Source: Sipunculus nudus
Lineage: Eukaryota > Annelida > Sipuncula > Golfingiida > Sipunculidae
Assembly: GCA_026874595.1 (NCBI GenBank)
Contig: CM049315.1
Coordinates: 72,771,416-72,835,415 of the forward strand
Direction of reading: 5' to 3'
DNA length: 64,000 nt
Every line of letters starts with the position of its first letter. The stretch's first letter is position 1. Below are positions 9,344 to 45,858 of the stretch, one piece after another. The notes beneath the pieces are model-generated. The model did no database searches. It saw only the letters and a list, made by a program, of their open reading frames with translations, and was not told where the DNA came from. Made by a program: the position numbers and the translations under genes.

Positions 9344-9413
9344 CTGTACATACGACGTGAACTATGGCAGAGCCCAGCACAACCATCCATCCCCATCCTC
9401 CTTCAGGTGCCAT
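9344..9413 (-). pseudogene. orphan first coding exon of an SLC16/MCT-like gene
   Basis: This 70-nt exon starts at an ATG (9411-9413) and encodes MAPEGGWGWMVVLGSAIVHV followed by VCT, then a GTAAAT donor on the minus strand. It carries the MCT first-helix signature (E/D)GGWGW and has the same length and phase as exon 1 of the other copies in this window. The reading frame and donor are intact. No exon 2-5 match was found between 1 and 9343, where a complete gene should continue; that space holds LTR and SINE sequence. It is therefore either a truncated gene relic or the first exon of a gene with a very long intron leaving the window. The first option seems more likely because introns 1 in the other copies are 0.3-2.1 kb. 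Confidence 0.75.
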
Positions 9414-12400
9414 GGTAACTAGGACAATTCATCCGGGCTTCTTCCTTCTCCAGTCGATTGCTGTCCGTGATAAAATATGGTCCTAGCGAAACATATACAA
9501 AATCTATTAATACTCGGGTTTTAAGTAAACAGCTTGCATGTATTTGCTTATCACTTATTGAAGTATACTGAAGAATAACTGAATATCTGAAGCCATATAT
9601 TACATCCCTAGTGTAAGATAAGTAGTGTGCTTATACATTATATATATATAGTCCATATAAATATGGGACAGGTCACTTGTGGTCAACATGCTCAAAAACA
9701 TTAAACGAAAGTGAATCAAACTGATAAAACCCGATACTTCATAACAGTGTGAAGTGAGACATGATAGTGAATTTTGATAGTTAAAATGTTAAGTGTTATA
9801 AATATTGCGTTAAGTATTATAGCTAGCAATACCATGACGAATTAAAAATGCCACAGTTTTTACTTGCATCTAATCTCAAGAGTCTATCAGAAGGCAGCAC
9901 CTGAAAACAATTATACAGTGAGTGTTTTACATTTCTGAGTAATATTTGGTTAATCTTGCATATCTGTAAATCAGTAAATTGTTCAAGCAGTTCTTCAGAT
10001 TCGGGTGTGTTTTAGTTCCATCACCCCAGCTAGTTTAGCTGGTTGGTCTACGATGTGATATCAGTGCCCGTTAAGACCATGATCTCAACTTCATCCAGTT
10101 TCTTTTGCTTTCTTTCTCTCACTAACTATGCCCCACCTGTGTAAGTCATACGGGGAAGCGCACCGCAACGGCCATCCATCATATTGCATCGATATCGTAG
10201 TAAACAGCCGGTATTTTACCATTGAATAACAAGAAAGAATATATGTGAACTCACAAACGAAATTGTAAATCAATCACTATGGCAACAATTTATTTCATGT
10301 GCTGCGTGCAAGTTGGCTATCATCCGGGTACCCGTACGAGACGTGTTGTATACACGCGGGCAGAAGTTAAACACACATTGGTGGGGGTTACGAATTGGCT
10401 GAATCAAAACGGATTTTTTTCTAGCACATGATAGGTGGTGTTAGAAAGTACACAAACGTATCTAACGATTTTTAGTGGCAGGAAGAGGCGTCGTCAAAAA
10501 TGTCGAAAATATTTACATCCATTGCAATGCGGTTCTCGATATTTCAAATTTCTATTGACTTTTTTATGTCGAATGGCAAAACCCCGCGGAGCGACATTAG
10601 AATCCAGGCTTCATATTGGTTAAAGTAACTAAGTAAAGGACACGGAACAATAAGGTGCAAGCAGATGAAGTATAGTGATAACGAATAGGAATGACAATAT
10701 TTTAGGTAAGAAATATCCTGGTACAGCTGAATAAAATAACCATACAGTTTGACCCTGATGAGGCATGGGTTGAAATGTAGCTTGGATTCCAAAGTTGAGC
10801 CAACGCGGCTAGTGTGGTGTAGTAAACTAACGAATTCCAAAATTATCTTTAGGCAATTGACTGTTAGTCTCCTCCTGGCAACATTAACGTCATGTTTACA
10901 GCTGGACAGGTGTGACACTGATAATCATACTCAGATTGTATGGAGTCCACTTTGATATGCATGCTCGTGTCGTGTCGAGGTCAGTCGTAGTCACATGGCA
11001 GAGAGTTGTCAAACCAGGTGAGTAAATAATGGTTCATTCTATGGACACGCTGATGAGTGATTTATGCACAGACACCGCACTTTGGGCCATCCGCTGTCTA
11101 TTGAGTTTCTTCTCAAAGCTTAGCTTACGAGTGTCACAATGCGGACAATGGGCATTGTTTTTGTAACTCTGTTTCCTTTTATAGTTATTCCCATTATCCA
11201 ATGACGCGGCTTTGGAGCCTTTGCGACACAATACTGAGGTTTTCTTCATATTCGCGAGGCTGTAATTTCGCGAGTCTTAAATTTGAACGTTTCGCGAGGG
11301 TTTCATTTTCGTGATCGCACCCGGACCTATAAAATCTAAGTGCAGCAGGATTTTTTTTTATTAGATAAGAATTATCCACAATACCTCATTGTTTTCTTTT
11401 ACAGTCATTATATTATGCTCTGTGTCACAGTAAATATATTTGGTGATTTCCGCATGTTTAACAATATTTGATACTTATTAGCATTACCCGATTCCGATAC
11501 CATACATTCGATGATTAGGATGTTGAATAACATTACATGTTAGTGTGGCATCTTATTCCCGCGGGTTTCATATTCTCGATTATTCCCAATTCGCGAATAT
11601 CGCGAAATCAAACCCTCGCGAACAAAAAGACAAGCACATTATTTGGTGCATAATCTATAATTCTTACCGAATACAAATTTTCTTGTCCATAGTTTGTGTT
11701 TCTTTAAATATGGTGAGTAAACCGCAATGCCAGAAATTTAGCTATATATTTTATAAAGTTGTCTATATGACTTAATGAAATACTGGACTTTTTTAAGTTT
11801 TTTGGTGGAGGTGACCGCCTCCATTTTTAATGCTTATTTAAAGTACATGTACTTTAAGAATTCCGTTCCGGTTTCGGAATACATGACAGGGGTACCACTC
11901 GGAGTGGTAACCCGTTTGGAGGTCGGCAACGCAACAGTTTTAGAATATCAAGAACTCAGAAAAAGACTGCAGAGGCGCATTCGGCGGCTGGTGAATTCAT
12001 GTATCCTGAAAATCACTGATATGGTCTAAGTGAACACAGTGATTCTCGGCAAAATGACACGAGTCCAGTGACTTATTATGACTACAGATTAAGTGTCCAT
12101 TTAGATATGTCCGTTGCATTACCTGTAACTCCTGTCAGTTTTATGACCTTAGTTAAAACCGGAGTAGGGGGCTCCTCGGAGTCAGTCTAATGATTCACAT
12201 GTACACAGGGAACATTCCTCACACAGAGGATTAATCCAGATATATCGTAAAAAATAAACCTCTCCCTGCGGTCATGCGCATTGCATTCTTTCATTAAGAA
12301 ATCGTGGTATTTTGCATAGGAAATGAATTTGTTCACTCATTACGTTTATGGTTCAAAATTGATCTAGAACTTGCATCGACAGCATTCATTTCAATATAAG

Positions 12401-12467
12401 TAATATTTAATTGTTATTGTTAACTATATTTTAGATTTTTCCAAATATCTAAATCTACTGTGGGGTT
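9414..12467. other. no gene seen; upstream region of the orphan exon and AT-rich DNA
   Basis: No coding signal. The first 80 bases upstream of the orphan ATG resemble the 5' UTR of the other MCT copies. At about 11807-11835 there is the short repeat GAGGTGACCGCCTCCATTTT, which also occurs at about 30064 and 43858. No match to the conserved upstream exon of MCT-B and MCT-C was seen. Confidence 0.4.
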
Positions 12468-12476
12468 TAGAATCCG

Positions 12477-13173
12477 TACGCTCCCGAGGCAGCGGAAATC
12501 TTGCGCTTCAAAAGAAGCAACTGATTTCACGCTGCCAGCTTTGACCGTTTATGATATATTTAGACACCAGATGGCGGTTTGTTGTCCACTGAAATAAACG
12601 TGCGTACGATGTGACAAGCAGCCAATCAGATGCCAATAAACAAACACTCGACAGGCATCCTAGCTCCGCCCATTGCCGCGCTTCAAGCGCCGCTTGATGA
12701 GTTTCTGGTCGAATTTAAATTGCTCCCTCTGCATTCTCGCATTATCGACCGATTCGATTATGACATTATGACTGTGTTAGCGTAGCCATGTATCTGTTGT
12801 CTGCAGAACTGAAACCAGCCAGCGAGGTGTGTTGCAGCCTTTGTTGTTACGTTTCGTTTGAATTACAGCTCATCGGCCGAGCATCCGATGTGCCCAAGGC
12901 CCAAAGCAAACCACGTCAGGGGCAATTCTCTCTGAGCCTGTGGCCTGTTCAGACGGTTACGCTTGGGGATGAGCTGTCACTCAAAAAGAAATGAATATGA
13001 TTGGCTCCGTGTATTCCTCGCTTGGCTTTGTCTTCAAGCACAAGGTCTCATCTGATTGGACAAAAATACAGTGCTCCCCTCTGGCGTTGCAATTCAGGAT
13101 ACGAGGTCATAACAAACAGCGCCTTACGATATAGGAAGTAGCCCTATAGGTAAAGCGCTGTGTAAAGAGCGTA
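12477..13173 (+). mobile_element. non-autonomous DNA transposon, 9-bp target duplication, copy 1
   Basis: The ends are inverted: TACGCTC at the left and GAGCGTA at the right, with CAGCG a few bases further in on both sides. It is flanked by a perfect 9-bp duplication TAGAATCCG (12468-12476 and 13174-13182). The body has no transposase. Two more copies lie at 37848-38322 and about 39876-40772. A 9-bp duplication is typical of Mutator-like (MULE) elements, but the superfamily is inferred from that alone. The short open frame inside is not a gene. Confidence 0.88.
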
Positions 13174-13182
13174 TAGAATCCG

Positions 13183-16120: not shown

Positions 16121-17233
16121 GTGAATGTAATATTGATTTTTCCCCAACAGTATAACGTCACTTTTAGTCCTACCTTGGGGAAAATGACAGTTCGACAAGC
16201 AGATGAAACTGAAAATGTACTGTTAGAAATGGCGTGCACATTTACTTATACTACAGTAGATCTGAACCTTATAGCCTGTACTGCCACCTCAACGTCCTCT
16301 GTTAATAAAAAATCGAGCCCTTTGGTTGGCAGGCTGCCCGCTACGTTGGTAGAAACATTGTAACAAGTTTACCCCAGAGGCTGCTGGCTCGATGTGGCTT
16401 GGGGAGAACACAGGGCAGATATGTTTGCCACTTATCACCACTGATCAGTCCTTATATGAAACGATATGTTAAATGAAAAATAATGCGAAATGTATTTTAC
16501 ATATGATTTCGGTAAAAAAAATTCGAATAATGAGGAAAACGACACTTTTATTTGAGATATCATAACATTATCATTAAGTCGAATGTCGCAAAGAAACTTC
16601 CAGGGCTCTCGAACAGCCTATGATTTACCATAGGTCTCCTTGTAAGCTATGGCCAGTTAGATGGAGTTACTTTGGAGTTGGCAGTGAATGTAATATTGAT
16701 TTTTCCCCAACAGTATAACGTCACTTTTAGTCCTACCTTGGGGAAAATGACAGTTCGACAAGCAGATGAAACTGAAAATGTACTGTTAGAAATGGCGTGC
16801 ACATTTACTTATACTACAGTAGATCTGAACCTTATAGCCTGTACTGCCACCTCAACGTCCTCTGTTAATAAAAAATCGAGCCCTTTGGTTGGCAGGCTGC
16901 CCGCTACGTTGGTAGATACATTGTAACAAGTTTACCCCAGAGGCTGCTGGCTCGATGTGGCTTGGGGAGAACACAGGGCAGATATGTTTGCCACTTATCA
17001 CCACTGATCAGTCCTTATATGAAACGATATGTTAAATGAAAAATAATGCGAAATGTATTTTACATATGATTTCGGTAAAAAAAATTCGAATAATGAGGAA
17101 AACGACACTTTTATTTGAGATATCATAACATTATCATTAAGTCGAATGTCGCAAAGAAACTTCCAGGGCTCTCGAACAGCCTATGATTTACCATAGGTCT
17201 CCTTGTAAGCTATGGCCAGTTAGATGGAGTTAC
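16121..17233 (+). repeat. tandem duplication, period 562 bp, with a repeated small open frame
   Basis: Block 16121-16671 is repeated almost without change as 16683-17233. Each copy contains an open frame ending at a TAA (16361-16363 and 16924-16926). Each frame is preceded by a pyrimidine-rich stretch ending in CCCCAACAG, a good splice acceptor, giving an exon-like peptide of 70 residues that begins YNVTFSPTLGKMTVRQ. It includes two cysteines ten residues apart but no domain that I recognise. The one change visible in the peptide is E to D near its end. The high identity means the duplication is recent or has been homogenised; a collapsed or expanded assembly is also possible. Confidence 0.85.
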
Positions 17234-17239
17234 TATTCT

Positions 17240-18881: not shown

Positions 18882-19499
18882 CACAAACCTCGTGCATTTT
18901 TATTTTGAAAACTGTCTTGCAAGTTGACTTACACCAAACCTTGTTGTAATTCAAGTCATTCTGAATGTACAACTAGAACAAAGGAAATAAACGCCCGCAT
19001 GTGGGACAATAATAATATGTTGAAAGTTTTACTACCGAAAGAATTTCCCAATTTTAATCCAAACTGAGCCTAGTTGACATCAAGTTGGCACACTGGTGAC
19101 ATTGGGAAGGCTGGGTCAGATAGAGTGTCCGTAATATTCTTATATGAACGTATCATGACCTCGTGACCTGCGGAGGAAACTGAGCCATCCTGTGAATGAA
19201 TCATCTAGTTGGTGAATCGTGGTACGAATATCTTTTGCCTTGAATTTATAGATTTCATGCACTTACGTTTGACACCCGTCAAGGAATATTATCCGCTGTC
19301 TCATAAAACCGAGATTTTGAAATAATGACAATACCTATTAAACGGCAGTGCCTTGGCGGGGGTTTGCACTTTCCGAGTGATTTTCTTGAATGTTTTAAAA
19401 AATAACGGATAGTTAATCATATCTGTGGCATATGGATGACAAATGTTAAACTTTATCTGTTACTCTTCCTTCCGTGTTTTAAGCAGTTTCTTACTCTGA
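18882..19499. other. 3' UTR remains of MCT-A and spacer
   Basis: Segment about 19260-19400 matches the 3' UTRs of MCT-B (about 31470-31560) and MCT-C (about 40868-40980); for example CGAGATTT and GTGATTTTCTTG recur. The rest shows nothing recognisable. Confidence 0.5.
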
Positions 19500-19832
19500 C
19501 GAATTTGACTCCCTGGTGACATGTGTATACCGGACAGAAACCAGCCATGGTCAGACTTCCATATGTAGAGCGAATGTAGAGCGTCCTTCAGCACACCTGA
19601 AATTGATAAAAAAAAAATTACCAACGGTGACACCTCAGTTGTTAGTCAGCGCCATCTTGTGCTTATGTATGATACGATTCTTGGTACTATATTACAGCTA
19701 TCGCTTACCAACAACATTGTCAAAGTTCAGCCTCATTATATTGCTCGCGAACGTAAAAATGACCCCTGAATAATAGTATTATTTGAATATATTTCTAAAG
19801 AGTTTTGGTTACAATGAAGTTGCTTCATAGCA

Positions 19833-20252: not shown

Positions 20253-21585
20253 CTGATACAACTAAACCCATACTGCTCCCGACACCCTGGAAAAACAGAA
20301 GGCTCCCGACACCGGACGCCACCTGGTGGGCGGGAATGAGATTAGCCATCACAGTGATACGTTGCGCATTAAACCCGCTCATCACGAGGGTTCGCAAGCA
20401 GCACATAGTCACGTGAGGTATAACAAGCGTCACGAGACCTGTCATAACGCCCGCTGTACCTTGTAACAACACCCGACACCTTCTGACGTGCTTCAAGTCA
20501 AAGAAGAAACCAAATGAAAACCGACCTATGATGTCACACGCACCGGAAGTTGTGTACACGATTGCAACATCCGCTTCCGTTGCGCCCGCGCTCTTTAAAA
20601 ATGCTAGGAGGTACGTGTAAAAACCCATGTTGTTTATTGCCATTGAGTATATGGTCAAAGCATATATGATAAACGATAGATTTTTCAAAATGGCAACCTC
20701 GTCTTTTTGTTTTGAAGATTTCTTTAAACCTGATGATAGATACGCAGCGGAACATTCTGGATTAAGTTCTCTTTCATGGGACAATACTTCATTTGCCTCG
20801 TTTCTACACTGATCAATCGGGCGGGATTCCTGAGTGGATATTAATAATTTTATCTCAGCCTCTTTATTATCTGGTAAATCAGACTTATATTTGTTAGTAT
20901 CTGAAGACGCTTGATCCCTTTTGCATGTACCATCACTTTCCTTCTCTGTATTATTCTCAAATGATTGTCCATTTTCTGTGAAATATAGTTTTCGCAATGA
21001 CCTGTAGAGGGCCTCAGACACACAAAGGTTACAAGAGAGGCCAGCAGAGTTAAACAAAGCTCCCGGAAAAGAGCAGGTATCGAGAATCAAGACCAGAAAC
21101 GGAGACATGGCCATATAACTGATGCTGCTACCAAAAGTACTCAATGTCAATGGCTTTTTATCTTCTTCTGACAAAGTAATGACTCACTATGACCATAGAT
21201 GGTGCCATAGTTAGACTGGACCCAAAACCTGAAATTAATAAAATACAAACGCTTTTCAATGTACTATTCTGATTCAAAATAAATGATATGAAACTCTTAT
21301 ATCTTTATTTTAACTGGTCTCTTGAAACATGTACATGTGTTTAATTAACACACAGCTTAACACTGAAATTAATGATCGAACATCACGAGATAAATAAAAT
21401 TTAATTTTAGTTGTTTAAGCCTCTGCCTCCTTCCTTCCGTGCAGTTTACTTTTTTAATCGATCTGACAACTCAAAACAATACTGCAAAATATCAATAGGC
21501 ACAGATCTTTCTCGTTTATTTGTATTCATTTAATGCGATGTCTTGGTTTAGTAGACTAAATGACTTAATGTGTTTCTCTTGCTTG

Positions 21586-21756: not shown

Positions 21757-22559
21757 ATATACTGCTTTATTTTTAATTGAGATACACTAGTATACATGTG
21801 GGTAAGGTTTTGTTTTCATAATATCCAGTGTGATATATTAATTTAGTGATTATCCTTATCTCAAAACAATAACTTATTACCACTTACAAAATAGGTACTT
21901 ATAAAAAATATAATTGTAAAGACGATGTTCACAGACCAACCAGTACCTCGTATATGACATAGAGGGCGTAAAGGCTTGACACATAGGCCGAGGCAGTACA
22001 CCCGGCCGTCATGATCAAACTGCCTGTTATCACGACACCACGACATCCGTGTTTCTTCGCCAGCGAACTGGCAAGGGGCCCTGGGTAAAGCATACAAGGA
22101 TGAAATTATAATATTAATAAATCAATACGTATAAAGATGTGAAAGGTCAAAATTATTGGCAATAATACAAATATCAATGTGCCACCAATATAATTCTCGG
22201 ACAGAATTAAAAAATGGGCAAATATACAAAGAATCTTTAAAGAAGAATGGTAAATGTAAATAGCATCATTGTGATAGAACAATTTTGACAACGTTTGACA
22301 GAAATTTGGGCGCGATAGTAGGCAGTAATCAATTTGATGTTTTCTGGGATACATGAGGGAACTTGTTCAAAATTGAGAATTCAATATGGAAATTATTTGA
22401 TGTTAAATCTACCTATGTCTTTTGAAAAGAATAAACATGCAGTTAATAATCTGAATCGGTAAAAGTCGAAAGGTACCGTTGAATTTCAAAAGGAGTTTAG
22501 AAACTCCTTGATATTTGGTACAAGACAGTTAAATGTGTAAATATCATGTGATATTTGTC

Positions 22560-24591: not shown

Positions 24592-25697
24592 TACATACCA
24601 ATATATATATCACATACCAAAACAAAAGTGTGTGAAGTTGAATATAACAAGCACCAAGTTCGTCTCGGTGGCACCAGAAGAAAATCTGTCCACCAGGGAA
24701 AGATACAGCACTCCGAAAGAGCACTGTAAGCCTATAAAAGACAAACATATTGAACATAAGAATGGGAAATATATGTGATACATAATGCTATAATAATGTG
24801 ACTCTTAACCTAGAAACACACTGAAAGCATTTTTCTTCTGCCGCCAGGAGGGTATGCGTTGATCCCTGTTCGTGAGTATATGTGTGTGCGTTTTCATGCG
24901 TGTGTGTGTTTGTTCACAACTGGACTAACCCCATCATGAGCGGGATCTAATGAAATGTTAGGGCATTCTGAGAATGACCAAATAAAGAATAAATTAGATT
25001 TTGGTGTAGATCCGGAACATGATCCGGATTTAGGAACTACATCAAGTATGTTCACACATTTAGAGTCCGTTCTGCACGAATGTACCTGGGAATATGGGCC
25101 AAACATGTTGGGCCGTTTAAGTGAATGCTTTTATTCCTTAGAATGCAGATTTATTTTTAAATAATGAATTGCTTTCTGAAGGAACAAACCTCACGTAAGA
25201 TTCATTCAGCCTACCCTGTCTCGCACAAATGTCTATTTTACATCTTATAAGTGAGACTGTAAGTGTAAGCCATTTCCTTTTACGATATATCAGCATTGAC
25301 TTTGAACATATCCAGTATTTATAGAGCCCCGGATCAGAAGCCAGAATCATTAATCCCACTACTACCGGTCTCTGGTCTGCAAGAGGCTGATAGCAGTAGA
25401 CACTACTATGATAAACATTTTTTTTAAATGAAATTACTTTAACGAATCAAAACTTGGAAATTTGAGTTTCCTGTTTACCTGTACATACGACGTTAACTAT
25501 GGCAGAGACCCAGCACAACCATCCTTTCCCATCCTCCTTCCGGTGCCATGGCAACATGTGATGGTCATCTGACCTGCTTTTCTGGCAGACGATTGCTCTC
25601 CTTAAATCCTGCTGATTTAGATGTATTAATAAACAGGTTATCGAGTAAATTAATGTTATATATTTGCTTGTTACTTCGAGTTTGGTTTACATGCATG

Positions 25698-27889: not shown

Positions 27890-30010
27890 AGTGCAGCACA
27901 GTATCAGTCTGGGACCAGAGGCCGTGGTCGCTATAGCAGAGGCCTGAGAGGTGGATTCTACAGTGATCGCTCTAATCAGGATTACTACACGCACGCCCTA
28001 GCTAATCGGCAGTTCTACAGGAAACCACAATCAGGAGGCAAAAACGTAAATGATCAGAATATGTGAGGGCCAGAATAATGTCCATCAGTTTATTATTTTG
28101 TTGGATGAGCCTATAGCGCCCTCCAACGAGACTAACTATGAAAGTACATTGCATGTTTTTTATGTGTATTGGATCCTGCTCGATCCTAGATTAATATTTG
28201 ACATTTTTGTTTACAAACCAATATTTTCAATATTGTTTATATTAAGAAGACGTTCATGGGGAACCATATTTTACCATGGTATCCAGATTGGTGTTTTCAT
28301 TAAGAATATTAAGAGGTTACTTGACTGTATAAATGCATTGCTGGGACTTGAGCATTTATTGCACATGTTGCTTTAAATACATTTAACACGGCTTGTCATG
28401 GTAACATGGTATTATTCTCTGATGCATGGGTCGTATTGGCGCTTCAACTCATATTATCAATTGGGTAAAGAATGGTGTATATTTTGAACTATCAGAAGAT
28501 CAGAGCAGTTTTCATTTGCAGAATCCTCGGTCCTTAGCTACTCAGTGTGCATTTTTTTGATAAGGAAATTAGTCGTTTATTCTTGCTAGATGCAATTTAG
28601 CCATGTTCTTTCAGGCCAAAGTGTGTTAGCCCCATTAACGTTGTCCCTAAGTTTCTTAAACAAGCTTGTGATACGCCTAAATGTGCCTATGAAGACAAAC
28701 GTAACGTAAAATTATAAATACAGAGGGATGATGATTTAGCCAAAGTTAATTTAAAGGATGGGTTCCCGTATGTATCTGTGAAGCAAGTGCAATGTGACTT
28801 GCTGGGTTTTCAATGGAAAGGATATTTTTACGGATATATAGGAAATTGCCTTTTGGATTAGCTTTAAGCCCGTATTATTTTTGTAAACTTTTGAGACCTG
28901 TAGTAGCTTTTTTGAGGTCATTGTTTTTAAGGATTGTATTATGTGTTGATGACTTCATGAGCAGACCAGTCTGTTTCACAGACCATTTAGATCACCTGAT
29001 TCAAACATTATCGGAATTAGGATGGACAGTAAATTTAGAAAAATCGTCGGTTATGCCAAAGAAAGAGGCAAAATACTCGGCGAACACAATCAGGGCGCAT
29101 GGAAAATCAGTTTCCCAGAAAGAGACTTGGGAATCAATGCTGCATCTCAGTCAAGAGGTTCAACAGAATGGAACGTCTGTCCTGTATAAGGACGACCCGT
29201 AACTCGTAACCGATGCCTCCCATCTTGGCTTGGGAGAGGCGTGATTCCCGGACACTGGACTCATCGCATAGCTCACCATTCTTCCGGTTATCAAGAACTG
29301 ATAACAATTCTTATGGGTCTGCAAACATTCCGAGATATTATACAGAACAAATCCATTCAAATTCTTACGGACAATATTACTGCCCTTGCATAAATAGTCA
29401 ACAAAGGGGGCCCGTGCAAAGATTGAACATATATAGCAGCCGCGATCAGAGCATACATGTACAGGATACTCATATAAAGGGATCAGCGAACGAGGAGGCG
29501 GACCAGTTATCGAGAATACTGGACAGTTACTAGTGGCAGCTGCATCCAAAAATTGTTTCAACTTATAGATCGTCTTTACGGCCCGCATACCGTCGACAGG
29601 GTTGCAAGTGTGACAAACACTCAGCTGCCAAGGTTCAATTCACGCTTCTTGGAGCCCCCCCCCCCCCCCCCGGGCCCAGTCAGTTCTGGTACAAAAGTTT
29701 ACATGGCCATTGCTCCACCGTTAAAGATACCGAACAGTACCAGAGCGATAAGGTTCATGGGTGCCAGACCAGAACCGTGGAAAAAACGACACTGGCGAAT
29801 ATATGCCTGGAGAGTTTCTGGGAAAAACGTTTAACCAGGGAGGGCTGGTCCCCCAGAGCAACTGTACAAATGAAATTTGCTTGGGCAGATTCCACGCTAA
29901 AATTGTATAACGGATGGCTTAGGAAACTCAAACATTTATGTGATAAACGTTGCATAACGTTTCCACATGACACTGCAAATGTTTTTGCACATTTTTGTGT
30001 TCTTTAGCTG
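27890..30010 (+). mobile_element. DIRS-like (tyrosine recombinase) retroelement, broken
   Basis: Fossil element. Parts from left to right: a Gag-like tail rich in RGRGR and RGLRGGF (about 27930-28060), reverse transcriptase (about 28810-29150, with FGLALSP, VDDFM, the usual VDD catalytic block, and LGWTVNLEKS), RNase H (about 29205-29520, starting near a TDAS motif and ending near EEADQLSR) and the start of a tyrosine recombinase (about 29780-30007, WADSTLKLYNGWL). The order Gag-RT-RNase H-recombinase, with no integrase, is that of DIRS/Ngaro elements. It has several breaks, its recombinase catalytic half is not seen, and no terminal repeats were recognised. It looks old. Confidence 0.8.
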
Positions 30011-30191: not shown

Positions 30192-30476
30192 TTTTGTATC
30201 CTGGTGTCACCCAGGCCCGGTGTCTACCGCACCTGCGGGTCCTGGGTGTGTAATCATCCCCATTGCTGGGTCATAACACCGAGGAACCCCCAAAAGACGC
30301 ATTCGTATGTGAGTGATACACGACTCTGGGGCACAGCCTTCCCATTAAGCCTGCAGAGCGCTCACCCTGGGTGGGGGCCGACCGTGAAAAACCTCACCGC
30401 CTCGGCTGATATTCGAACCCACGATCTCCCGGCTTTGAGTCCTGCGGTCAACCCCTGAGCCACAGAAGCCGATCAG
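30192..30476 (-). mobile_element. tRNA-derived SINE
   Basis: Read on the minus strand, the head has a box A-like TGGCTCAGGGGTTGACCGC and, about 35 bases on, a box B GGTTCGAATATC, the internal RNA polymerase III promoter of a tRNA. Then come a block TTTTTCACGGTCGGCCCCC, GGCTTAATGGGAAGGC, and a tail ending in the GGGTGACACCAGG region. Copies lie at 8753-9035 (+) and 43858-44034 (-). Box B differs from consensus at the last bases, so it is probably not transcribed now. Confidence 0.8.
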
Positions 30477-31642
30477 GCAAAGCACACTTGATACATACGA
30501 AAGAACTTTCAAATTTTGTAAAAGCACTTACAAAATGTGACACTTCAGCACCAGGAACGCGCTCATTGGTGATGCCTATTCAACTTTTTTTAGAGCTGGC
30601 CAACAAATGAGGACCTCACAATTAAGGACCTGAGGTTAACAAAAATGGCTCTGCTTGCGCTATCCATAATGCTCAGACCCTCTGACTTTGCCCCCCAAAA
30701 AATGCATATATATATATATACAATCAGAATTGTATTTGGCTTCGTGACTAAGAGCCGAACAAATCGTCCTTGCCGCAGCTTGCCGCCCCTGAACCCCCCC
30801 CCCTCCCCGCTTCACCTTCCAACACACACGCACTCACACACACCTTGTGCGCCTATGTCAAAATATATTAGCAGTTACAGCAGCTATTATATTTGATCTG
30901 TTTTGTACCTAACGGTACATTGGTTATAAAATGCAAGCTCTAATTGTACAGCACGGGAAATGAACACTAAGGGAAGTCGACCAAACAGCGCGTAAGTTTG
31001 ATGACGTCTAATCTTGCAAAGATATTTGCAAAATCTGGATGTGCATCCAAGTTTGTATAAAAAACAATAGATTAACACTTTGTCATATAGAACAGATACC
31101 GCGAACAGCACTTCCGTGAATTATATATATAGCAAATCAAGCAAAACTGTAGTGAAACCTAAGCCCAGAGAGTCTACACACACGTTCGCTACACTCTATG
31201 AGCATGCTGTCCTAACAGGCCATGAGCCTTCACGTGTGTGTACACCTCAGGCCTAAAACTGATATGCCTACATATAACTTTTGATTATGCTAAAACCCTC
31301 GTGCTCATCACCGTATATATTTATTTGCGTAATCACTGGCCTTCTTGATTGATCAGAGTTGATAGGTGTTGATAAGAAACCTGGGGATAGTGCCAATAAT
31401 GCATTGTATTTTATGAACTTATAACATCTCTACTTATAAGGCATTGAGCACATTGATCCTGGAACGGCAACCAAACATTTCACCGTCAAGCCGGTCCGGT
31501 ATGTTATCCACACTCGTTTAAACCCGAGATTTAGGCGAAGGTCTGCGCTTTCCCAGTGATTTTTCTAATTTGTTTATAACTCTAAAAAAATTAATCAAGT
31601 GATCCTCGACACTCTTATAGTTTTTCTGTTGCTTTCCCGTCA
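30477..31642. other. spacer and 3' UTR of MCT-B
   Basis: The part at about 31470-31642 is homologous to the MCT-C 3' region (40868-41038) and so is probably the 3' UTR. A poly-C tract lies at about 30793-30805. The rest shows nothing recognisable. Confidence 0.5.
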
Positions 31643-34600
31643 TTATTTTATCGCAGAATTCCTTGATCTGACGAACTTGACTCCCTGATGACATGTGTAC
31701 ATCAGACAGAAACCAGCCATGGTTAGACCTCCATAATAAAACGGCATGCTCAGCGAATGTAGAACGTCTTTCAGCACACCTGAAATTAAAAAAAAAAACG
31801 GTTATGGTTATCAACGATGTTTATCAGCGCCGTCTGACTATTCTGCTCGAAATGATGAATGTGGTTGCAAGGTTAAATATTCGCGATTTTAACCTCTTTC
31901 CTTTTTCGTGTAGGTTTTATTTCGCGAATGACCAAACAGTAACTTACACATTGTACATAACAATTATTATATCAATTATCTATCTTAACTTGTCCACTAG
32001 AGACAATCAAACACGTGGAATTTCTTCATGCAATAGTGGCAGATATACAAAGTATTGATCTTATTTATATTATTAATTTTTAAATACAGATAACATAAGA
32101 TGTATGCTAATACTGACGCTATCAGCAAAATATATATACGTGAGATGCTTTGAAGCTATAGTACAAAGTACCGTTCACCTGTGCAGATGGATCGTCTTAT
32201 TCAAGGTTTTATTTTCACGATAGTTTCCCTTTAATATCGCGAATTTGAAACCATCCCGAACAAAAGCCGAACCCAGGGGTGGCTCTATTTCTTCTTTACA
32301 TTACAAGTGAGCCTAAATTTACCTTATTATGTATATACAATGATATCTCATTTGAAATTAACTGGGTCTTTTATTATGGTTTATAATGGATTTTCTTTTT
32401 TTATTTTTGGAGTGAACGTGTTTCACTGAATGAACACGGGGTGGCACTCATAGACAACTAAGGTATACAATTAATACCTCACAAAAACTAATAAATAAAA
32501 ATTTGAATATAACGATATGTGATCAGTGATCAGTACACATTTAGATTATGAATAGTTAAAATAAAAGCACGATAAACATGTAGGACAGATCCGAAAAAAG
32601 GGACGGACCGTGATTATGAATTACAGATAAATAAAACCTATTTGATGATGAAAATAGAAAATCCATGTAGGTTGGTACATAAACTTACCTGATACTACAA
32701 AACCCATGCTGCTTCCCATACCTTGGAAAAACAGAAGGATTCCGACACCGGGCGCCACCTGGTGGACGGGTATGAGATCAGCCATCACAGTGACGCGTTG
32801 AGCATTAAACCCGCTCATCACGAGGGTTCGCAAGCAGCACATGATCGTAATCCATACGTGACTGGTCACGCGAGGTATAACAAGCGTCACGAGACCTGTC
32901 ATAATGCCCGCTGTACCTTGTAACAACACCCGATACCTCTTGACGAGCTTTAAGTCAAAGAGGAAACCAAATGAAAACCGTCCTATGATGTCACAAGCAC
33001 CGGAAGTTGCGTAGACGATTGCCACTTCCGCTTCAGATGCGCCTGCGCTCTTTAAAAGTGCTGGGAGGAATGTGTAAAAACTCATGCTGTTTATTGGCAT
33101 TGAGAAGATAGTCAACGCATAAACAATAAATGATAGGTTTTTCAAAACGGCCACCTGGCCCTTTGGAATTTTGAATTTCCTGAAAACTGAGGGCATATTC
33201 CTCGAGGAACTTTTTGAACGTTGGTCTCTTGTTTGTGACATCTTATCTTCTGTGGTCTCCAGTCGCGGGTCTGATTCATCTTTCTGATTAACAGGTGAAT
33301 TCAAGTAATGTATATTATTCTCTGTTTGATTATCTCCCTTTGTGTTTGTCCCATCACTTGCTTGCCTCTCAGTGTCCTTCACTAGTGATTCTGCGATGTC
33401 CAGTCGGCGTTCTCGTAATGGACGATAAAGGGCGCCAACGACACACAGATTAAAGGATAGACCGGCACAGATCAAAAATGCTCCGGGGAGTGAGTAGTCA
33501 TCCAGAATCCATACAAGGAATGGAGGCATAGCAATATAACTGATGCTGTTACCGAACGTGCTGAGCGCCATTGCTAAAGATCGTCTCCTGACAAAGTAAT
33601 GACTCACTATTATCATAGAGGGCGCATATGTCAGACAAGATCCAAAACCTGAATAGAATAGTACAAATGTGGGTTAATATTCGACACTGGACCATGATGA
33701 CGTAATCACATAATTAAAAAAAATAACGAAGATTGACATTAAAAATTAAATCAAGTGTGTGTGGTTTTCTCGCCCAGACCCTGATCATGTATATATAACG
33801 CATGCTGTACGTATATTTTAGCATGTATCCTAGTTCATAGGACTTCATGGGATATCGTTCGGGATATCCCTAACCATTGTCGAAATTAAATGTTGTGTGT
33901 ATGTCAGTTACAAAATTTTGCAATGGTATATAATACCAGTCGTGAGACCAGTTCATGCTGGCCAATGTTTCGATTGGAGTTTCTTATTTCGATCTCGGTA
34001 TTGGTCTTAAGCTTGCGATAGGGATTTTTACAAAAATTCGGTTTCACAAAATGTCAGGCAACTTAATGCTTGTCTAACGACTTTACCTCCGTTTCTTGGA
34101 TACTGAGAAGTGTTTGTTTTGATATGAGTTCGCAAAAGGCAAAAACCCTATTTCTCTAGGCAACAAATCTTGATTTAGCATGCTTGGCATACACATATTT
34201 TTAAGATGAATTAAGTAAAGTGGTTAACGCACAAATATAAATAGATAAAAAAATCGCCAGCAATTACCAAAAAGAAAGATATTAATATAAACTATTGACC
34301 GTCGTTGAAACATAAGATTTACTAACCCACTACTATTCCAAATGTCACATAGAGGGCATAAAGGCTAGACACATACGCCGAGGCAATACACCCTGCCGTC
34401 ATGATCAAACTGCCTGTTATCACGACACCCTGACATCCGTATTTCTTCGCCAACCAACTGGCAAGAGGGCCTGAAGATAAACACAAAAGTAAAAAAAAAT
34501 CAATAAAATTAAAAATACATTTATTTAAGAGGACATGAACAGCATATTCGTATGAAACACAGACAAAAAGAACTTATAAACTTAAATGTAATTTCATTTA

Positions 34601-35415
34601 ATTTAATATGAACAATTCACCAGTTAATGAAATGTCATTATATTAATGAGATACGCTGTCTTGTATGATTGCCATATAACCGAAACGTATTGAGATAAAA
34701 GGTGCCTCGACCAGTAGTCAGCGCCGTCTGGTGTCTCCTCTCGAACCAATGATTTGATTTCATTTTTGTTCTTGTAAGAGACATCCGACAAGAGATTTTC
34801 TGGTAAAGTATGAGTCATCATTTGTTTTATGTACGAATTGGGAACGAGGACTTGACATTTAGATGTAATCGAGAACGTTATGCTGTCGTTTGGAAAAGTG
34901 TCACTTACCAAAGGAATTCTGTGCGAAGTTTAACGTAGCTAGGACCAGGCTTGTCTCGGTAGCACCTGCGTAATATCTGTCCACCAGTTCTAGGTATATC
35001 ACCCCAAACGAACACGTAATGCCTGAAAAAAATAATTATATATACAAAAATTATAATCCAGGGACGGAAGATCGCGTAGATGCGTAAGGCGTCAAGTCAA
35101 ACATGTACCTGTTACCCACAATTAGACAAGAGTAGTAGATGTCTCAGCTTTAGACAAGGGTTGGGTTGCGGTTAACCGATTGTTGGTTCAATCATAGGTC
35201 TGGAAAGGTTTCAATATCCCAAAATGCTTGATCACGGTCTTGGAAAGCAAACCATGGAAACTCATGTTTTGCGTTTACAATATGTAGATGATATACTGCT
35301 AGATTAATAAAATTTCAAAATAAGCTGTAAAATTTTTTTATTTACCTGTAAGTACGATGTGAACCATAGCACAGCCTAACACAACCATCCATCCCCATCC
35401 CCCATCCGCTGCCAT
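31643..35415 (-). CDS. MCT-B: SLC16/monocarboxylate-transporter-like protein, intact
   Basis: Five coding exons on the minus strand: 35346-35415, 34909-35022, 34327-34470, 32689-33648 and 31643-31779. All introns are phase 1 with GT-AG ends (donors GTAAAT, GTAAGT, GTTAGT, GTAAGT), and the joined frame is 474 residues. Helix 1 carries the MCT signature DGGWGWMVV at residues 5-13. A second family motif, YFVRRRSLAMALSTFGNSIS, marks the helix 4-5 region. The long, charged, poorly conserved stretch at about residues 200-270 fits the cytoplasmic loop between helices 6 and 7, and helices 7-12 follow (FLPALLKSAGA, SGACDIIGRFSFGFLFDLK). The family moves monocarboxylates or other small organic solutes across membranes, often with protons. 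The substrate cannot be read here, and members such as MCT8, 10 or 12 carry other cargo. The C-terminus is short and ends in RNSAIK. A conserved upstream block suggests a non-coding first exon. Confidence 0.9.
32042..32688. other. intron 4 of MCT-B, AT-rich
   Basis: Intronic DNA. Part is shared with intron 4 of MCT-C: GGGTGGCACTCATAGACAACT at about 32440 against AAGGTGAAGTCATAGACAACT at about 41423, and both have a run of short AT-rich words before the exon 4 donor. No coding content. Confidence 0.5.
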
Positions 35416-36338: not shown

Positions 36339-36341
<3 letters not shown>

Positions 36342-36783: not shown

Positions 36784-37055
36784 TTGAGAGATCGTAGATA
36801 TGAACAGGGATTTTACGGATCCTACTTGGTTTAAATGTATTGACTGTTATCGTTGATGAGGTTTCCGTGTCCGGGCTCTTACTTTGGGCACATTAAGTAG
36901 CCGTGTATAATCATCAATGCCAAAATGATCTTCAAAGCAAACGTGCGACCAGGTATGAGCTATTATATAGAAGTTGTTTGATCGCTGATATCATGTTGAT
37001 TACTGTATTAGCTCTTTGTGCAGAATCTGTTCGAGCCAACAGTGAGTGACGACAG
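36784..37055 (-). promoter_or_regulatory. probable 5' UTR exon and promoter region of MCT-B
   Basis: On the minus strand a block runs GGATCCGTAAAATCCC, CTGTTCATA, TACGATCTCTCAAG and then GTATGG, a possible splice donor at about 36783. The same block precedes MCT-C at 47541-47590, and a further block GCTGATATcATgTTGATTA at about 36980-37000 recurs at about 47791-47811. Exon 1 of MCT-B has a pyrimidine-rich acceptor-like stretch 20-70 bases upstream of its ATG, so this would splice to it across about 1.3 kb. There is no coding potential. The exon role is inferred from conservation plus donor position. Confidence 0.55.
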
Positions 37056-38322: not shown

Positions 38323-38331
38323 ACCACAGAG

Positions 38332-39875: not shown

Positions 39876-40772
39876 AAGTGCTATACTGCAAGCGCGGTTT
39901 GTTTTGACCTCGTATCCTGAATCGCTACACTAGAGGGTAGCACTGTATTTTGGTCCAATCAGATGAGACCCTATGCTGAAAGACACGACCTCTATGATTG
40001 GCTGAAATGGTAACATGATTAATAAATAGAAAATATAATTGCTGCTGGCAAAATCTTTTTAGGGTTTGAAGAAGCCATTGTGTATAAGCTAGACCACAAA
40101 CTTATTCCATAAAAATTTGTGGTCCTACTGACTGCGTGTAAACAATGCCCGATATGCGACACACAGCTGATGCGACAAGGAATCTACATAATTATCAGGC
40201 CGTGTTGTCAGCAAAAGGTTTACCAGCCAAGGGAGGAATACACGGAGCAACTGTTGTTACATTTGCTTTAAGTGACAGCTCATCGCCACGGCAACCGTGT
40301 GAATAGGCCACAGTCGGTAGCACAGGCTCAGAGAGAATGACCCGACACGTGTTTGGCACTTGTCCTTGGGCAAAATGATTGCCCGGCCGGTGAGCTATAA
40401 TTCAAACGAAATGTAACATCATTGGCTCCGTAGACACCTCGCTGGCTTGTTTCCGTTTTGCTGGCAAGGGGAAACATGGCTAAACTAACATAGTCGTAAT
40501 GTCATAATCGGATCGATCGGTGATGCGAGGACGTAGAGGGAGCAATTAAAAGTCGACTATTTTTTAACTAAGAGTAACCACCTGAGTGCACCTGAAGAAC
40601 AGCTATGGGCGGAGCCATGATTTCTGTCCAGTGTTCGTTAACTGGCATTTGGTTGGCTGGCAGAAACGACCAACCACCTGGTGTCTAAATGTATCATAAA
40701 CGGTCAAACCAGGCAGCGGGAAAATCAGTATTTTCTTTAGAAGCGCAAGATTTCCGCTGCCTCGGGAGCGTA
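39876..40772 (-). mobile_element. non-autonomous DNA transposon, copy 3, reversed and eroded at one end
   Basis: The inner end matches exactly in reverse (CGCAAGATTTCCGCTGCCTCGGGAGCGTA, ending at 40772; here split as CGCAAGATTTCCGC and CTCGGGAGCGTA). The far end is recognisable by GACCTCGTATCCTGAAT but has lost the TACGCTC terminus, so no target duplication can be seen. It is the longest copy (about 0.9 kb). It lies just past the 3' UTR of MCT-C. Confidence 0.75.
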
Positions 40773-41038
40773 TGGTCAATATGGCGCTTATACTTTGAGG
40801 TGACCAATGATGCAACTGTAGCGTTGTTGAAACTTTAAACAACCTTTCCTTGATTAATATATTTCCTGTGCTTACGTTTCGCACCCAACGGTCAAACCAG
40901 CTCCGATATATCATCCACACTCGTATAAAACCGAGATTTAGGCGGAGGTGTGTGTTTTTCCTAGTGATTTTCTTGTTTGTTTTTAAATCTCGGAAAAAAA
41001 TTATTACATCTGTCGCCTATGAGTGATCCTGACCACTC

Positions 41039-42946
41039 TTATGGATTTTCTGTTGATTTCCCGTCCGTGTTGTTTGCAGATTTCCTTGTTCTAACGAGCT
41101 TGACTCCCTGGTGACATGTGTATATCAGACAGAATCCAGCCATGGTCAGACCTCCATAATAAAACGGCATGCTCAGCGAATGTAGAGCGTCCTTCAGCAC
41201 ACCTGAAATTAAGTAAAAAGCTTTTTTTACTTCCGGTAATATCTAAGATGTTTTTCAACGCCATCTGCCGCTCCTACTGGAAACGATTATTTGCTCAAAT
41301 TCTTTCTCACGTAACATTTAATTTATTGATTGTTATGCATAAATAATACCATAATTTAAATCAACTGTATTACTTGTTAAGATTTCTAAGTGATTTTCTG
41401 ATTCACGCTTCATTAAATGACCACAAGGTGAAGTCATAGACAACTGAAGTAAAGAATAAATACCTCAATCTAATAAATAAAAACAATAATGAATTAATCT
41501 AATACAACAATGCTCTGAACTCTTTTAATTTTTAAATATTCAAACATATAGTACGAATCCGAAAATGGGAGGGACCTTTATTTTTAATTACATATACAGA
41601 ATACCTATTTTATGATAAAAACTGTCATGGGAAAACTACGTAGGTTGGATTAAAAACTTACCTGACACTACAAAACCCATGCTGCTTCCCATACCCTGGA
41701 AAAACAGAAGGATCCCGACACCGGACGCCACCTGGTGGACGGGAATGAGATCGGCCATCACCGTCACGCGTTGAGCATTAAACCCGCTCATCACGAGGGT
41801 CCGCATGCAGCACATGATGCTAATCCCCACGTGACTTACCACGTGAGGTATAGCAAGCGTCACGAGACCTGTAATAACGCCCGCTGAACCTTGTAACAAC
41901 ACCCGATACCTCTTGATGAGCTTCAAGTCAAAGAGGAAACCAAATGAAAACCGTCCTACGATGTCACACGCACCGGAAGTTGCGAAGACGATTGCCACAT
42001 CCCCTTCCGTTGCGCCTGCGCTCTTCAGAAGTGCCGGCAGAAAGGTGTAAAAACTCATGTTGTTTACTGGCATTGAGAAAATCGTCAAAGCATATATAAT
42101 AAAAGATGGAATTCTTAAAACAGCCATTTGCCCCTTTGGAAGTGATAATTTCTTTTTCAGAGAAGATAAGTTCCACGAATCTCGTTTCTTTCTCTGATTT
42201 GTAGACTCTGTAGCCATATTCTCCGACTTAATGTTATCTTTTTCAACCCGCTTCGCTAAATGAGTCGTTTCCAGCTTTTTTAAGTCCTCTTCGTGATCGC
42301 AAATTGAACTCGACGGATATATTTGACTCTCGGTCTCTCTATGTTCCTTTATGGGTGTGTCATCGCATTTTCTCTTTTTCACGCTCATTTCAAATGACTC
42401 GACGTTTCCTGTAAGATAAACTTTTCTCAATGGACGGTAGAGGGCGCCAGCCAAACACAAATTGAAAGAGAAGCCGGCACAGATCAGGAAAGTCCCCGGA
42501 AGTGAGTATATATCAAGAATCCAGAACAGAAATGGAGGCATAGCGATATAACTGATGCTGTTACCGAACGTGCTGAGCGCCATGGCTTTGGATCGTCTCT
42601 TGACAAAGTAGTTACTCACTATGATCATAGAGGGCGCAAATGTCAGACTAGATCCAAAACCTGAAAATGGATAAGTTGACAAAATAGAATTACATACCAA
42701 AAATTTAGATATTATTATGAAATGCATGTAATTATGAGCATACATCAGGTGAAAAATAAAGCGAAGGATTGCTAATGATTTCCTAATAATCAATTGATAA
42801 AATTGAAATAAATATAACGATATATAAACAATTCAGAAGTCAATTTATACCAAGTTAATATTAAAATACATCAGCTATAATCGCCCCTATATGGTAGAGC
42901 ATTATCACTAGGATTTATATGAATCATTATATATGAACAATAAGGA

Positions 42947-42994
<48 letters not shown>

Positions 42995-45858
42995 TCCAGA
43001 AAAATTTTCACTGACCAATAAGTACCCCAAATGTTACATAGAGGGCGTAAAGGCTTGACACATACGCCGAGGCAATACACCCGGCCGTCATGATCAAACT
43101 GCCTGTTATCACGACACCCCGACATCCGTATTTCTTCGCCAATGAACTGGCAAAGGGCCCTGGTTAGGTAAATTATGAAATTGCAAAGTAACAAAAAGTG
43201 CGTATTACGATCCTACTTCAGCAAGAAGTATTAATTATCCACGCAGCTGTTACCCTTCATTCATATTACACATAAAACTTTAAACAGGATCTATGCGCTA
43301 ATGAATCATTGTCAACAACAGAATGTTTGATTTACCATGAAAGACAACACAATGAATAAAATGTTCTTCAATTTGTGTCTTTCACTCTCCTTCTATACTT
43401 ATTTTTACAGTGAAATCTCAAATTAAGAGCGCCATCGAGACTTCGATAAAGTGGTATCATTTTCAAAATAGTCGTCTAAGCGAGGTCTTAAAAGAGCAAA
43501 AATGGATTGTGACCGTGAAAAAGTTATGGTTATTTTGAGGTCGTAGCTTAACTGAGGTTTTACTCTACTTAAAAAATAAAATGTTTCCGCTGACTACAAA
43601 GTACATGTACATACCGAAACAATAGTGTGTGAAGTTAAATAGAACCAAAACCAGGCTTGTTTCGGTAGCGCCCGCAGAAAATCTGTCCACTAGGTCAAGA
43701 TATATCACTCCAAACGAGGACTGTAAGCCTGAAAAGAAAAGAATGATAGTTTCCTTTTAAAAAAGGGGTACGGTTTAGATAATCCAAACATTTTGCTGAA
43801 AATCCCAATTCTTTTCTTTTTTTATCATTATTACTTTTATTTTATTTATTTTTGTTTGAGGTTACCGCCTCCATTTTTTAATGCTAACTTGGGCACGGCC
43901 TTCCGATTAAGCCTGCAGAGCGCTCACCTTGGGCTGAGACCGACGGTGAAAAATCTCACCCCCTCGGATGGATTCGACCTCACGATCACTTGGCATTGAG
44001 TCCTGTGCTCTAACCCGGAGCCACAGGAGCCGGTCAACAATCCCATTTTTTCGATTTAAGGTTTACATCGAGTTAAAGAGGTTTTTTTTTTGTAAAACTG
44101 CAGATAATTTTTTTATCCCAGTTTATACGTATTTTTTTTATCACGAATATGCGAATAAACAAGGCCTATTTTCCAATATGTCGTCATGCAACACATTCAC
44201 TACGCTTCGGCCTTTTAAAATCAGTTCGGCAAATTAAGTCAAAACAAAAGGCCTCACTCACACCTCCTGGGGGTTCTTCCGGGGCTGTCCTAAAACTCGC
44301 AACGGAACGGACACGTGACAGGGGCATTATTTACGGAACGGAACAGAACAAAGATATAAAAATTGTGTTAATATTTTAATTGGATGAATTTTTCATGACA
44401 TAATTTATTGTAATAAACGTATTTCAACATATGCGATTTGTTAATTTTTTATTTTAGCCCCTGTTCCGCGTTCCGTGTTTTAGGCCAGCCCCGGAAGACC
44501 CCCACGGAGGTGTGAGTGAGGCATTTTGTTTTGACTTTGCCCAACTGATTTCAAAAGGCCGAAGCGTAGTGAATGCATGCATCAGACACCGCTGAGACTG
44601 GTTCCCAGTTGTTGGTATGGCTCTATTTTAAAGTGACCAATTCCCATACCTGGCATGTTATATATCCTTCAAAAATATGGTTTCCGCTGCAGAATATTAT
44701 GATATTTGAACATTTTCTAAAATTGTTTGTTTACTCCTGTACACGAGTTTAAATAAATTTGCATCGGGCGCGATCGGTGACTCAAGACATAAACAAGTGT
44801 TTCTTCTTTCATGTCCCTTCTCTTTGTTTAAGAATTATTGCGTATGAGCAAGATCGCATCTCTGGTTGAGCAGTGTTGTTGTGGTGAACAGATAATGTGG
44901 ACTTTGTTTACTCACACAAAGAACCATATCAACTTATAAAACAGGTGAATTTTAAGGAGAAAATCTGTGTGCCGGGATGGTATTACTTGAAAACGTTTGA
45001 ATTCGGCCAAAATGAGCTTATAGTATGAGTTTGTACAAAAATGATTGCAAATGATAATGTACTTTTATGGAAAAATACATGTTTAAGCAATATTTTCGGA
45101 ATTATAAACATAGCACTTAATAACAGTTATTGTATAGTTTTATAATACATGAATAAAAGTATTTGGAAAATACCTGTATTGTAGCCTTCATGTTTGGCTT
45201 ATTGAGATCCAGAAACTAAAAACTGATAAATTACAATATATATTATAATTGATATGTCAGGTACTCTTAATCGTGAGCAGGCAAATCTTCTGTTGGCCTT
45301 CATGTGTCGAGCACAATGAAAGCATTCCCCATATTTTCACAGAAGTCCCAGGGATTTTTATATATGAAAAATATCGCGATGGGTCTATCGCTGAAGCATC
45401 TAATCAGAAACTACGCCAGTTTATCTATCAGCGCCCTCTATTGTAATTGGGTAGAACATGTCCTCAGGTCCGTATTCATGAATAAATGATTTGCTAATAT
45501 CCCTTTAAAATAAAGAAATAAAAAGGCGTCAAACTACTGATCCCTTATTCCTTTTCGTTCGATTGATCAACTGGTCTGTGTCGAAGACTGAGAGCGTCAG
45601 CATTCCCATACAAACGCCAAAGTGTCTGTCATTTTTGCTATCGTATATGTGCTCTACCAAATTTTAGTACCCGAATTTGTGCAAAAATTGATTAATTCAG
45701 TTTAAGTTCTAATCATTGCAGGTGAATTTAAATTGGAAATTCTGTACAAGTATGAAAGGAGAAAAAAAATAGAAAACTTTTTTGTAACCTGTACAAACGA
45801 CGTGCACTACTGCTGATCCGAGTACCACCATCCAGCCCCATCCTCCTTCCGGTGCCAT
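41039..45858 (-). CDS. MCT-C: SLC16/monocarboxylate-transporter-like protein, intact
   Basis: Five coding exons on the minus strand: 45789-45858, 43615-43728, 43016-43159, 41662-42660 and 41039-41202. All splice junctions are phase 1 with GT-AG ends, and the joined frame is 496 residues (exon boundaries after residues 23, 61, 109 and 442). Residues 1-23 read MAPEGGWGWMVVLGSAVVHV plus VCT, with the MCT signature EGGWGW. YFVKRRSKAMALSTFGNSIS is the second family motif. The variable loop at about residues 195-290 is rich in K, E and S. Helices 7-12 follow, including SGACDIVGRFSFGFLFDLK and MADLIPVHQVASG. Exon 5 gives the last helix (MPFYYGGLTMAGFCLIYTC) and a basic tail ending in STENP. Length and layout fit SLC16. 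Substrate is unknown. It is closest to MCT-A in exon 2 (both GLQ(S/C)SFGV) and to MCT-B in exon 4. Confidence 0.92.
42948..42990. repeat. (TA)n microsatellite in intron 3 of MCT-C
   Basis: A pure (TA)n run ending 25 bp from the exon 3 donor. Similar runs lie near exon 4 of MCT-A and upstream of MCT-B. Confidence 0.9.
43408..43566. mobile_element. short inverted-repeat MITE, pogo-like ends
   Basis: The left end CAGTGAAATCTCAAATTAA and right end TTAACTGAGGTTTTACTCT are inverted and flanked by TA. The core shares GACTTCGATAAAGTGG and GACCGTGAAAAAGT with the relatives at 21586-21756. It is in the intron between exons 3 and 2 of MCT-C. Confidence 0.65.
43858..44034 (-). mobile_element. tRNA-derived SINE, short copy
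   Basis: It carries the SINE head on the minus strand (CGGCTCCTGTGGCTCCGGGT) and the region GGTGAGATTTTTCACCGTCGG. It lacks the middle and tail seen at 30192-30476 and joins directly to the GAGGTTACCGCCTCCATTTTT block. It is in intron 1 of MCT-C. Confidence 0.7.
44186..44580. mobile_element. foldback (palindromic) MITE
   Basis: Two arms of about 130 bp (44186-44320 and 44455-44580) are near-perfect reverse complements. Shared words are CATTCACTACGCTTCGGCCT, CACTCACACCTCC, TTCCGGGGCTG and GTTCCG. A 134-bp AT-rich spacer separates them. The RNA or DNA would fold into a long hairpin. It lies in intron 1 of MCT-C. The adjoining short open frames are not genes. Confidence 0.85.
44581..45788. other. 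intron 1 of MCT-C, no other feature
   Basis: AT-rich intron sequence with no recognisable element. Confidence 0.5.

Follow-up and report, generated by a model that had tools for sequence, protein, structure and literature searches.

Block-wise amplification of an SLC16-type transporter cluster that probably carries a dead gene as passenger

The window analysed here, 64,000 nucleotides of Sipunculus nudus (C10:72,771,416-72,835,415), holds four neighbouring minus-strand loci of SLC16-type transporters, termed C, B, A and D, and is very probably one unit of a segmentally amplified cluster in which the dead gene A travels as a passenger. Four five-exon paralogues, already diverged from each other, were copied together in units of about 49 kb, some of them inverted, until about eight blocks were spread over 2.08 Mb of one chromosome. 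The main lesions of A predate the copying of its block, and A would have been carried along only because the block, and not the gene, is the unit of duplication. In the block of the window gene D keeps exons 1-4, has probably lost its exon-5 side at a breakpoint and has gained a very young long terminal repeat (LTR) element in intron 1. A preliminary description of this DNA had read it as birth and decay within the SLC16 family. A cluster with intact and broken copies is indeed present, but what has been born recently is a four-gene block of about 49 kb and not a gene beside its neighbour.

Contig C10 is 79.6 Mb long in a genome assembly of 1.43 Gb and 153 contigs. The window was extended by 100 kb on each side to a 264-kb stretch containing 0 N, and all positions given below are window coordinates, zero and negative numbers lying to the left of the window. 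A genome-wide search with exon 4 of the gene MCT-C (C) gave 122 matches, and as 125 of 356 candidates were scored the counts are lower bounds. Within the cluster 46 matches were merged by hand into 39 exon-4 places, pieces of one copy being joined. The cluster thus comprises at least 39 such places at C10:72,016,126-74,094,581 (2.08 Mb), on both strands, and 21 of the 39 cover query residues 1-317 without a stop. The best scored exon-4 match outside the cluster has an expectation value (E) of 5.3e-38 at 36% identity, and weaker short matches there reach up to 43% over 65 residues. The common gene order, given here and below along the direction of transcription, is C-(C)-B-A-D on either strand, and all four types are found in six of the eight blocks. 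The window belongs to block 3 (72.81-72.76 Mb; C, B, A, D), which is on the minus strand together with block 1 (72.20-72.16 Mb; C, B, A and a fragment, with one more A copy at 72.016) and block 5 (73.43-73.39 Mb; C, C, B, D, with A not seen). Blocks 2 (72.64-72.71 Mb; C, C, B, A, D, D), 4 (72.89-72.97 Mb; C, B, A, D, D), 6 (73.60-73.67 Mb; C, B, A, D, D), 7 (73.78-73.85 Mb; C, C, B, A, D) and 8 (74.04-74.09 Mb; C, C, B, A, D) are on the plus strand.

For exon 4 an unrooted tree was built from 33 of the 39 places, the other six being the block-1 fragment, the last D of block 6, the D of block 7, and both C copies and the D of block 8. It falls into four groups by type, with 100% support for each of B, C and D and for the split between A and B+C+D, and with supports of 78-100 among the A copies. 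The nearest relatives of each window gene are the copies at the same position in other blocks and not its neighbours. Exon 4 of a given type is 87.6-99.3% identical to the window copy, except for D_72707 (72.0%) and for A_72917 and A_73621 (81-82%), whereas identity among the four types of the window is 70-76%. An inverted-repeat arm at 8184-49559 in block 3 pairs with 115732-157426 in block 4, right of the window, and when the stretch from the left side of the LTR element to -11384 is included, the arm matches 115,732-162,768 in inverted orientation. Aligned pieces of blocks 3 and 4 are 76-94% identical (86.6-94.0% for the five longest), and the block left of the window likewise matches the window arm. 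As these matches span exons, introns and intergenic stretches, block copying took all of them together. The blocks probably spread by unequal exchange or by replication-based duplication between repeated blocks. The features of birth-and-death evolution are found side by side, i.e., the genes are clustered, intact and broken copies are mixed, and the phylogeny follows lineage. Large tandem satellite arrays occupy 82901-86791 and 90878-101260 in the spacer between the inverted blocks.

The order of events is read from gene A. Its exon 1 (25479-25549, 71 bp) has a 1-bp insertion and a closed frame, exons 2 (24618-24731) and 3 (21937-22080) are open, exon 4 (20253-21228) contains a TAA stop codon, a 1-bp insertion and a 21-bp deletion, and exon 5 (19469-19596, its 3' end not fixed) has an 11-bp frame-shifting deletion. 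Several of these lesions recur in other blocks. The exon-4 TAA is found in three of eight A copies (that of the window, A_72671 and A_73834) and the 21-bp deletion in the same three, out of six copies that keep that part of the exon, while the 1-bp insertion in exon 4 is seen in the window copy only. The 11-bp deletion of exon 5 is found in five of the six copies compared there (the window copy, A_72671, A_72917, A_73621 and A_73834, but not A_74076), or in four of five if blocks 4 and 6 are one locus. All eight A copies are broken in exon 4, by differing lesions. Because lesions are common to several blocks, A would have died before the window block was copied and have been a passenger since. 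That one copy had failed, as described previously, is borne out by the damage to exons 1, 4 and 5, but the failure has to be dated before the copying of the block. Relaxed constraint is suggested by the mean exon-4 ratio of nonsynonymous to synonymous divergence (dN/dS), which is 0.71 for the eight A copies against 0.41, 0.48 and 0.37 for three open B, nine open C and four open D copies, respectively. With open and broken copies of B and D mixed the values are 0.70 (A), 0.34 (B), 0.47 (C) and 0.33 (D). The ratio of A is below 1, and perhaps part of its divergence predates its death. A processed origin of A is ruled out, as five separate exons are kept, an AG preceding each of exons 2-5 and a GT donor following each of exons 1-4. 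Downstream of A a 551-bp direct tandem duplication (16121-16671 and 16684-17234, 99.8% identical) looks private to the window block, both units matching one single stretch in sister blocks. A short reverse-transcriptase remnant (RVT_1, 4.1e-07) lies between A and B at 28798-29202.

Gene D had been reported as a lone exon at 9344-9413 on the minus strand. This is exon 1 of a longer gene, whose exons 2 (-7232 to -7119), 3 (-9598 to -9455) and 4 (-11259 to -10264) are found on the same strand left of the window, 16.5-20.6 kb left of exon 1, with GT..AG splice sites and a frame that stays open for 441 codons; an orphan exon is thereby ruled out. Intron 1 measures 16,462 bp because an LTR retrotransposon of about 12.15 kb sits inside it, and this element together with the window edge explains why exons 2-4 were overlooked. 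The element, of Ty3/gypsy type and on the minus strand, extends from about -3982 to 8167 (1-8167 within the window), with the right LTR at 5425-8167 and internal frames at 2-3148 and 3103-4536. One of its frames encodes reverse transcriptase, RNase H and then integrase, the order of Ty3/gypsy elements. The two LTRs (2744 and 2743 bp) differ by one mismatch and one gap (99.9% alike), and the element was inserted in an (AT)n run that block 2 carries free of the insert; it is very young. Inside the right LTR, at 7194-7376, a 91-bp unit with several CACGTGG stretches is perfectly duplicated in tandem. For the D gene of the window block no exon 5 was detected in the 88 kb to the left of its exon 4; each match to exon 5 there (E < 0.05) lies on the plus strand and is part of another copy. 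A laxer search of the same 88 kb with the D exon 5 of block 2 added only chance-level matches (E above 1). Homology of D to blocks 2 and 4 stops at -11384, 125 bp past exon 4, in the window block only. As blocks 2 and 4 keep matching each other past this point, the break belongs to the window block, and its D gene is probably truncated at a rearrangement breakpoint. Complex nested repeat arrays at -32488 to -13500 start shortly past the breakpoint that ends gene D.

MCT-C and MCT-B are the two whole genes of the window. The five exons of MCT-C are at 45789-45858 (the first coding exon, 70 bp), 43615-43728, 43016-43159, 41662-42660 and 41039-41202 (with the stop), those of MCT-B at 35346-35415, 34909-35022, 34327-34470, 32689-33648 and 31643-31779 (with the stop), all on the minus strand. 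Rebuilt from the sequence, the exons join into 496 residues for MCT-C and 474 for MCT-B, with GT..AG ends and phase 1 at all eight internal junctions, exactly as the earlier frames had it. The exon-1 length and N-terminal signature said to unite the four loci hold for B, C and D (70 bp, (D/E)GGWGW), but A has 71 bp and reads EGGWER.

Membership in the SLC16 family, as originally proposed, was confirmed. The Pfam family PF07690 (MFS_1) is matched with E values of 6.9e-40 (C), 6.6e-43 (B) and 8.8e-21 (D exon 4), and MCT structures are the nearest PDB matches. Among 13 distinct PDB sequences that match C at E <= 0.001, 12 are MCT1, 2, 8 or 10, and the remaining one is an L-lactate transporter of the major facilitator superfamily. 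MCT10 matches C with E 1.5e-29 and MCT1 with E 7e-27. The motif of transmembrane helix (TM) 1 in SLC16 proteins is (D/E)GGWGW, which is found in exon 1 of B, C and D and in the alignments with MCT1 and MCT10. The TM5 motif of the family begins YFxKRR, and here NYFVKRRSKAMALSTFGN of C aligns with KYFYKRRPLANGLAMAGS of MCT1. In the proton-linked lactate transporters MCT1-4 a lysine, K38 of MCT1, is characteristic together with D309 and R313. The latter two align with D342 and R346 of C, carried in exon 4, while K38 aligns with S27 of C and is by position Cys in B and Val in D, so that the residue set of the MCT1-4 subgroup is incomplete. Since K38 is replaced although the D309/R313 pair is kept, we name no substrate and make no claim of lactate-proton transport. 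The proteins of B and C, as well as those of five-exon D copies elsewhere, are predicted to be 12-helix plasma-membrane transporters of SLC16 type.

The four types are old relative to the blocks in which they lie. B and C are 80.7% identical over 766 aligned positions of exon 4 and its flank (E = 0.0), and their synonymous divergence (dS) is 1.46 in exon 1, 0.85 in exon 2 and 0.60 in the 5' part of exon 4, against 0.29 in exon 3, 0.29 in the 3' part of exon 4 and 0.22 in exon 5. B and C had been taken for recent tandem duplicates, which does not agree with a dS of up to 1.46 and with an exon-4 tree that pairs each of them with same-position copies elsewhere. A placement of B and C in different distant SLC16 clades had been named as the outcome that would speak against a local duplication; they do form separate clades, but these are sisters within the same local cluster. 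Between types, the matches found by blastn lie at the exons; they reach no further than 55 bp upstream of the ATG, and a longer piece follows exon 5. Their upstream end lies 54-55 bp before the ATG for D-B and A-B and about 6 bp before it for C-B, C-D and A-D. The suggestion that the promoter was copied together with the genes is therefore not supported between types, the similarity ending just short of an acceptor-like AG, but it can hold for the copying of blocks. In all ten copies viewed an AG is present 50-88 bp before the ATG, mostly behind a T-rich stretch. To judge from this sequence, what precedes exon 1 is more likely the acceptor end of an intron, and a non-coding exon would lie further upstream; this exon was not found. 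Given the acceptor-like AG, the promoter is likely elsewhere.

A simpler account would have the four neighbours arise by recent gene-by-gene tandem duplication, after which one copy failed and one shrank to a single exon. The loci are adjacent and have the same exon plan, order and strand, and similarity continues past exon 5 on the 3' side (31482-31856 with 40888-41287). This account is nevertheless contradicted by the tree, by the gap between the identities within most types and between types, by the lesions that A shares across several blocks and by the presence of exons 2-4 in D, and we consider it extremely improbable for the recent past. It is, on the other hand, likely that the four types themselves arose long ago by tandem duplication, gene by gene. 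It is also conceivable that the number of blocks is largely an assembly artefact, i.e., that uncollapsed haplotypes of a very heterozygous animal were placed in series. Blocks 4 and 6, near-identical at an almost constant offset, would fit this, and so would the B copies of blocks 1 and 2, each 99.3% identical to the window B in exon 4. However, blocks 3 and 4 are inverted within one N-free stretch and their pieces differ by 6-24%, C copies are 2.8-10.9% off the window C in exon 4, blocks are found on both strands, and an extra C copy is present in four of the eight. An artefact on this scale is very unlikely. Amplification of blocks with A as passenger remains the preferred reading, and several observations weigh against it. 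In the exon-4 tree no copy of blocks 4 and 6 has a branch longer than 0.4%, and four of their five copies are offset by about 704.7 kb, the fifth by 707.9 kb; one of the two blocks may be a haplotype that was retained or an error of scaffolding, which would leave seven blocks. The pattern is imperfect, as block 1 has C, B, A and a short fragment, with an extra A 163 kb off, and block 5 has no visible A, and the type of six of the 39 exon-4 places was inferred from identity and position only. More than one route led to the death of A, the TAA being missing from five of its eight copies and none of the three shared lesions being present in A_74076. Decay reaches beyond A into B copies, as just three of the eight B copies in the tree, that of the window included, are open through exon 4. 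The five broken B copies have a dN/dS of 0.37, no higher than open copies, and the ratio does therefore not show recent death. Finally, the intactness of B and C was judged by frame and splice sites alone, and the donor after exon 1 of C, GTTACA, is weak; the C copy of block 4 has the same.

The uneven silent divergence raises the question of exchange between the types. Gene conversion could hold down the differences among types in exon 3 and in the 3' half of exon 4, with the dead A copies as possible donors. In favour of this, the types differ by a dS of 0.20-0.29 in exon 3 and of 0.29-0.43 in the 3' half of exon 4, compared with 0.40-1.46 for exons 1 and 2 and the 5' part of exon 4. At fourfold sites exon 3 with the 3' half of exon 4 is less diverged than exons 1, 2 and 4a with the loop (p = 0.0063, 0.0011 and 0.012 for three non-independent pairs), and a comparison within type C shows no such deficit in exon 3 (4/28 against 1/16, 2/19 and 4/38 in exons 1, 2 and 4a). 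The opposite is suggested by a Sawyer-type run test on silent sites, which gave p = 0.017 for C-B, 0.19 for C-D and 0.20 for B-D. For exon 3 taken alone p is 0.15 in C-B. Furthermore, the exon-3 tree still sorts mostly by type, and in type D, too, exon 3 is low, with 2/29 compared with 10/41 for exon 4a, which fits plain constraint. Heterogeneous silent divergence is thus present and the run test is weak for two of the three pairs, so that conversion among types is possible, with the odds somewhat against it. It is tempting to speculate further that the block is, in this species, a copy-number-variable amplicon selected for transporter dosage, with the fossil gene A amplified alongside, and that, at the same time, exon-limited conversion homogenises exon 3 and the 3' half of exon 4 across the four types, with dead copies as possible donors; that both should apply together is improbable.

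Other repeats accompany the genes. A repeat pair at 30326-30475 and 43888-44036 (82% alike) carries a GGTCGAATCC stretch resembling the B box of a tRNA, and the repeat is perhaps a tRNA-derived short interspersed element. Upstream of gene C diverged repeats of about 0.6-1.1 kb, 69-70% alike and both direct and inverted, pair 53841-54939 with 62116-63172 and 58120-58717 with 61261-61829. Remains of an element of non-LTR type are present at 50410-51506, with a zf-RVT domain (Pfam, 8.5e-13) in 50955-51506. The best MFS_1 matches genome-wide are single open frames of 409-513 residues on the high-numbered contigs C105, C114, C122, C131 and C132, which might be bacterial contaminants or symbionts.

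Growth and decay of a gene family are a well-known general process, and the cluster is a clear but ordinary case of it. What is corrected is the scale, as the unit of birth is a multi-gene block and not a gene. Through a dead gene whose lesions are shared between blocks, the order in which the blocks were duplicated can be read, and A serves as a built-in yardstick of relaxed constraint beside constrained copies. The cluster is also a caution that the number of genes counted in an expanded mollusc family will vary with single or double assembly of such blocks.

The closest known system is the expanded MCT (SLC16) family of Sinonovacula constricta, which resembles the present cluster in its many copies and local duplicates. 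In that species 54 MCT genes are reported, up to 15 of them on one chromosome, about 35.7% of the monocarboxylate transporter genes may be tandem duplicates, and most of the genes cluster in a mollusc group (PMC11939762). In the main text of that study the terms "pseudogene", "segmental", "inverted" and "gene conversion" do not occur and "block" is used for synteny only, so that block-wise copying with a fossil gene does not appear to be described there (PMC11939762). No paper on repeated SLC16 blocks turned up in the literature search listings, which is a weak negative. Expansion of bivalve MCT genes with tandem duplicates is thus already published, and the detail added here is the block-wise copying with a passenger pseudogene. 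SLC16A10 is reported to be expanded and expressed in the gill of a thyasirid clam (PMC9993606). SLC16A10/MCT10 and SLC16A1/MCT1 share the N-terminal GGWGW and align with C over both halves; MCT1 has K38 where C, B and D have Ser, Cys and Val, and MCT10 lacks the Asp kept here. Tandem-duplicated bivalve families in general, such as the C1q-domain genes, are likewise reported to have grown by local duplication, and the present cluster differs from them in that the copied unit is a four-gene block with a dead gene inside (PMC6835236).

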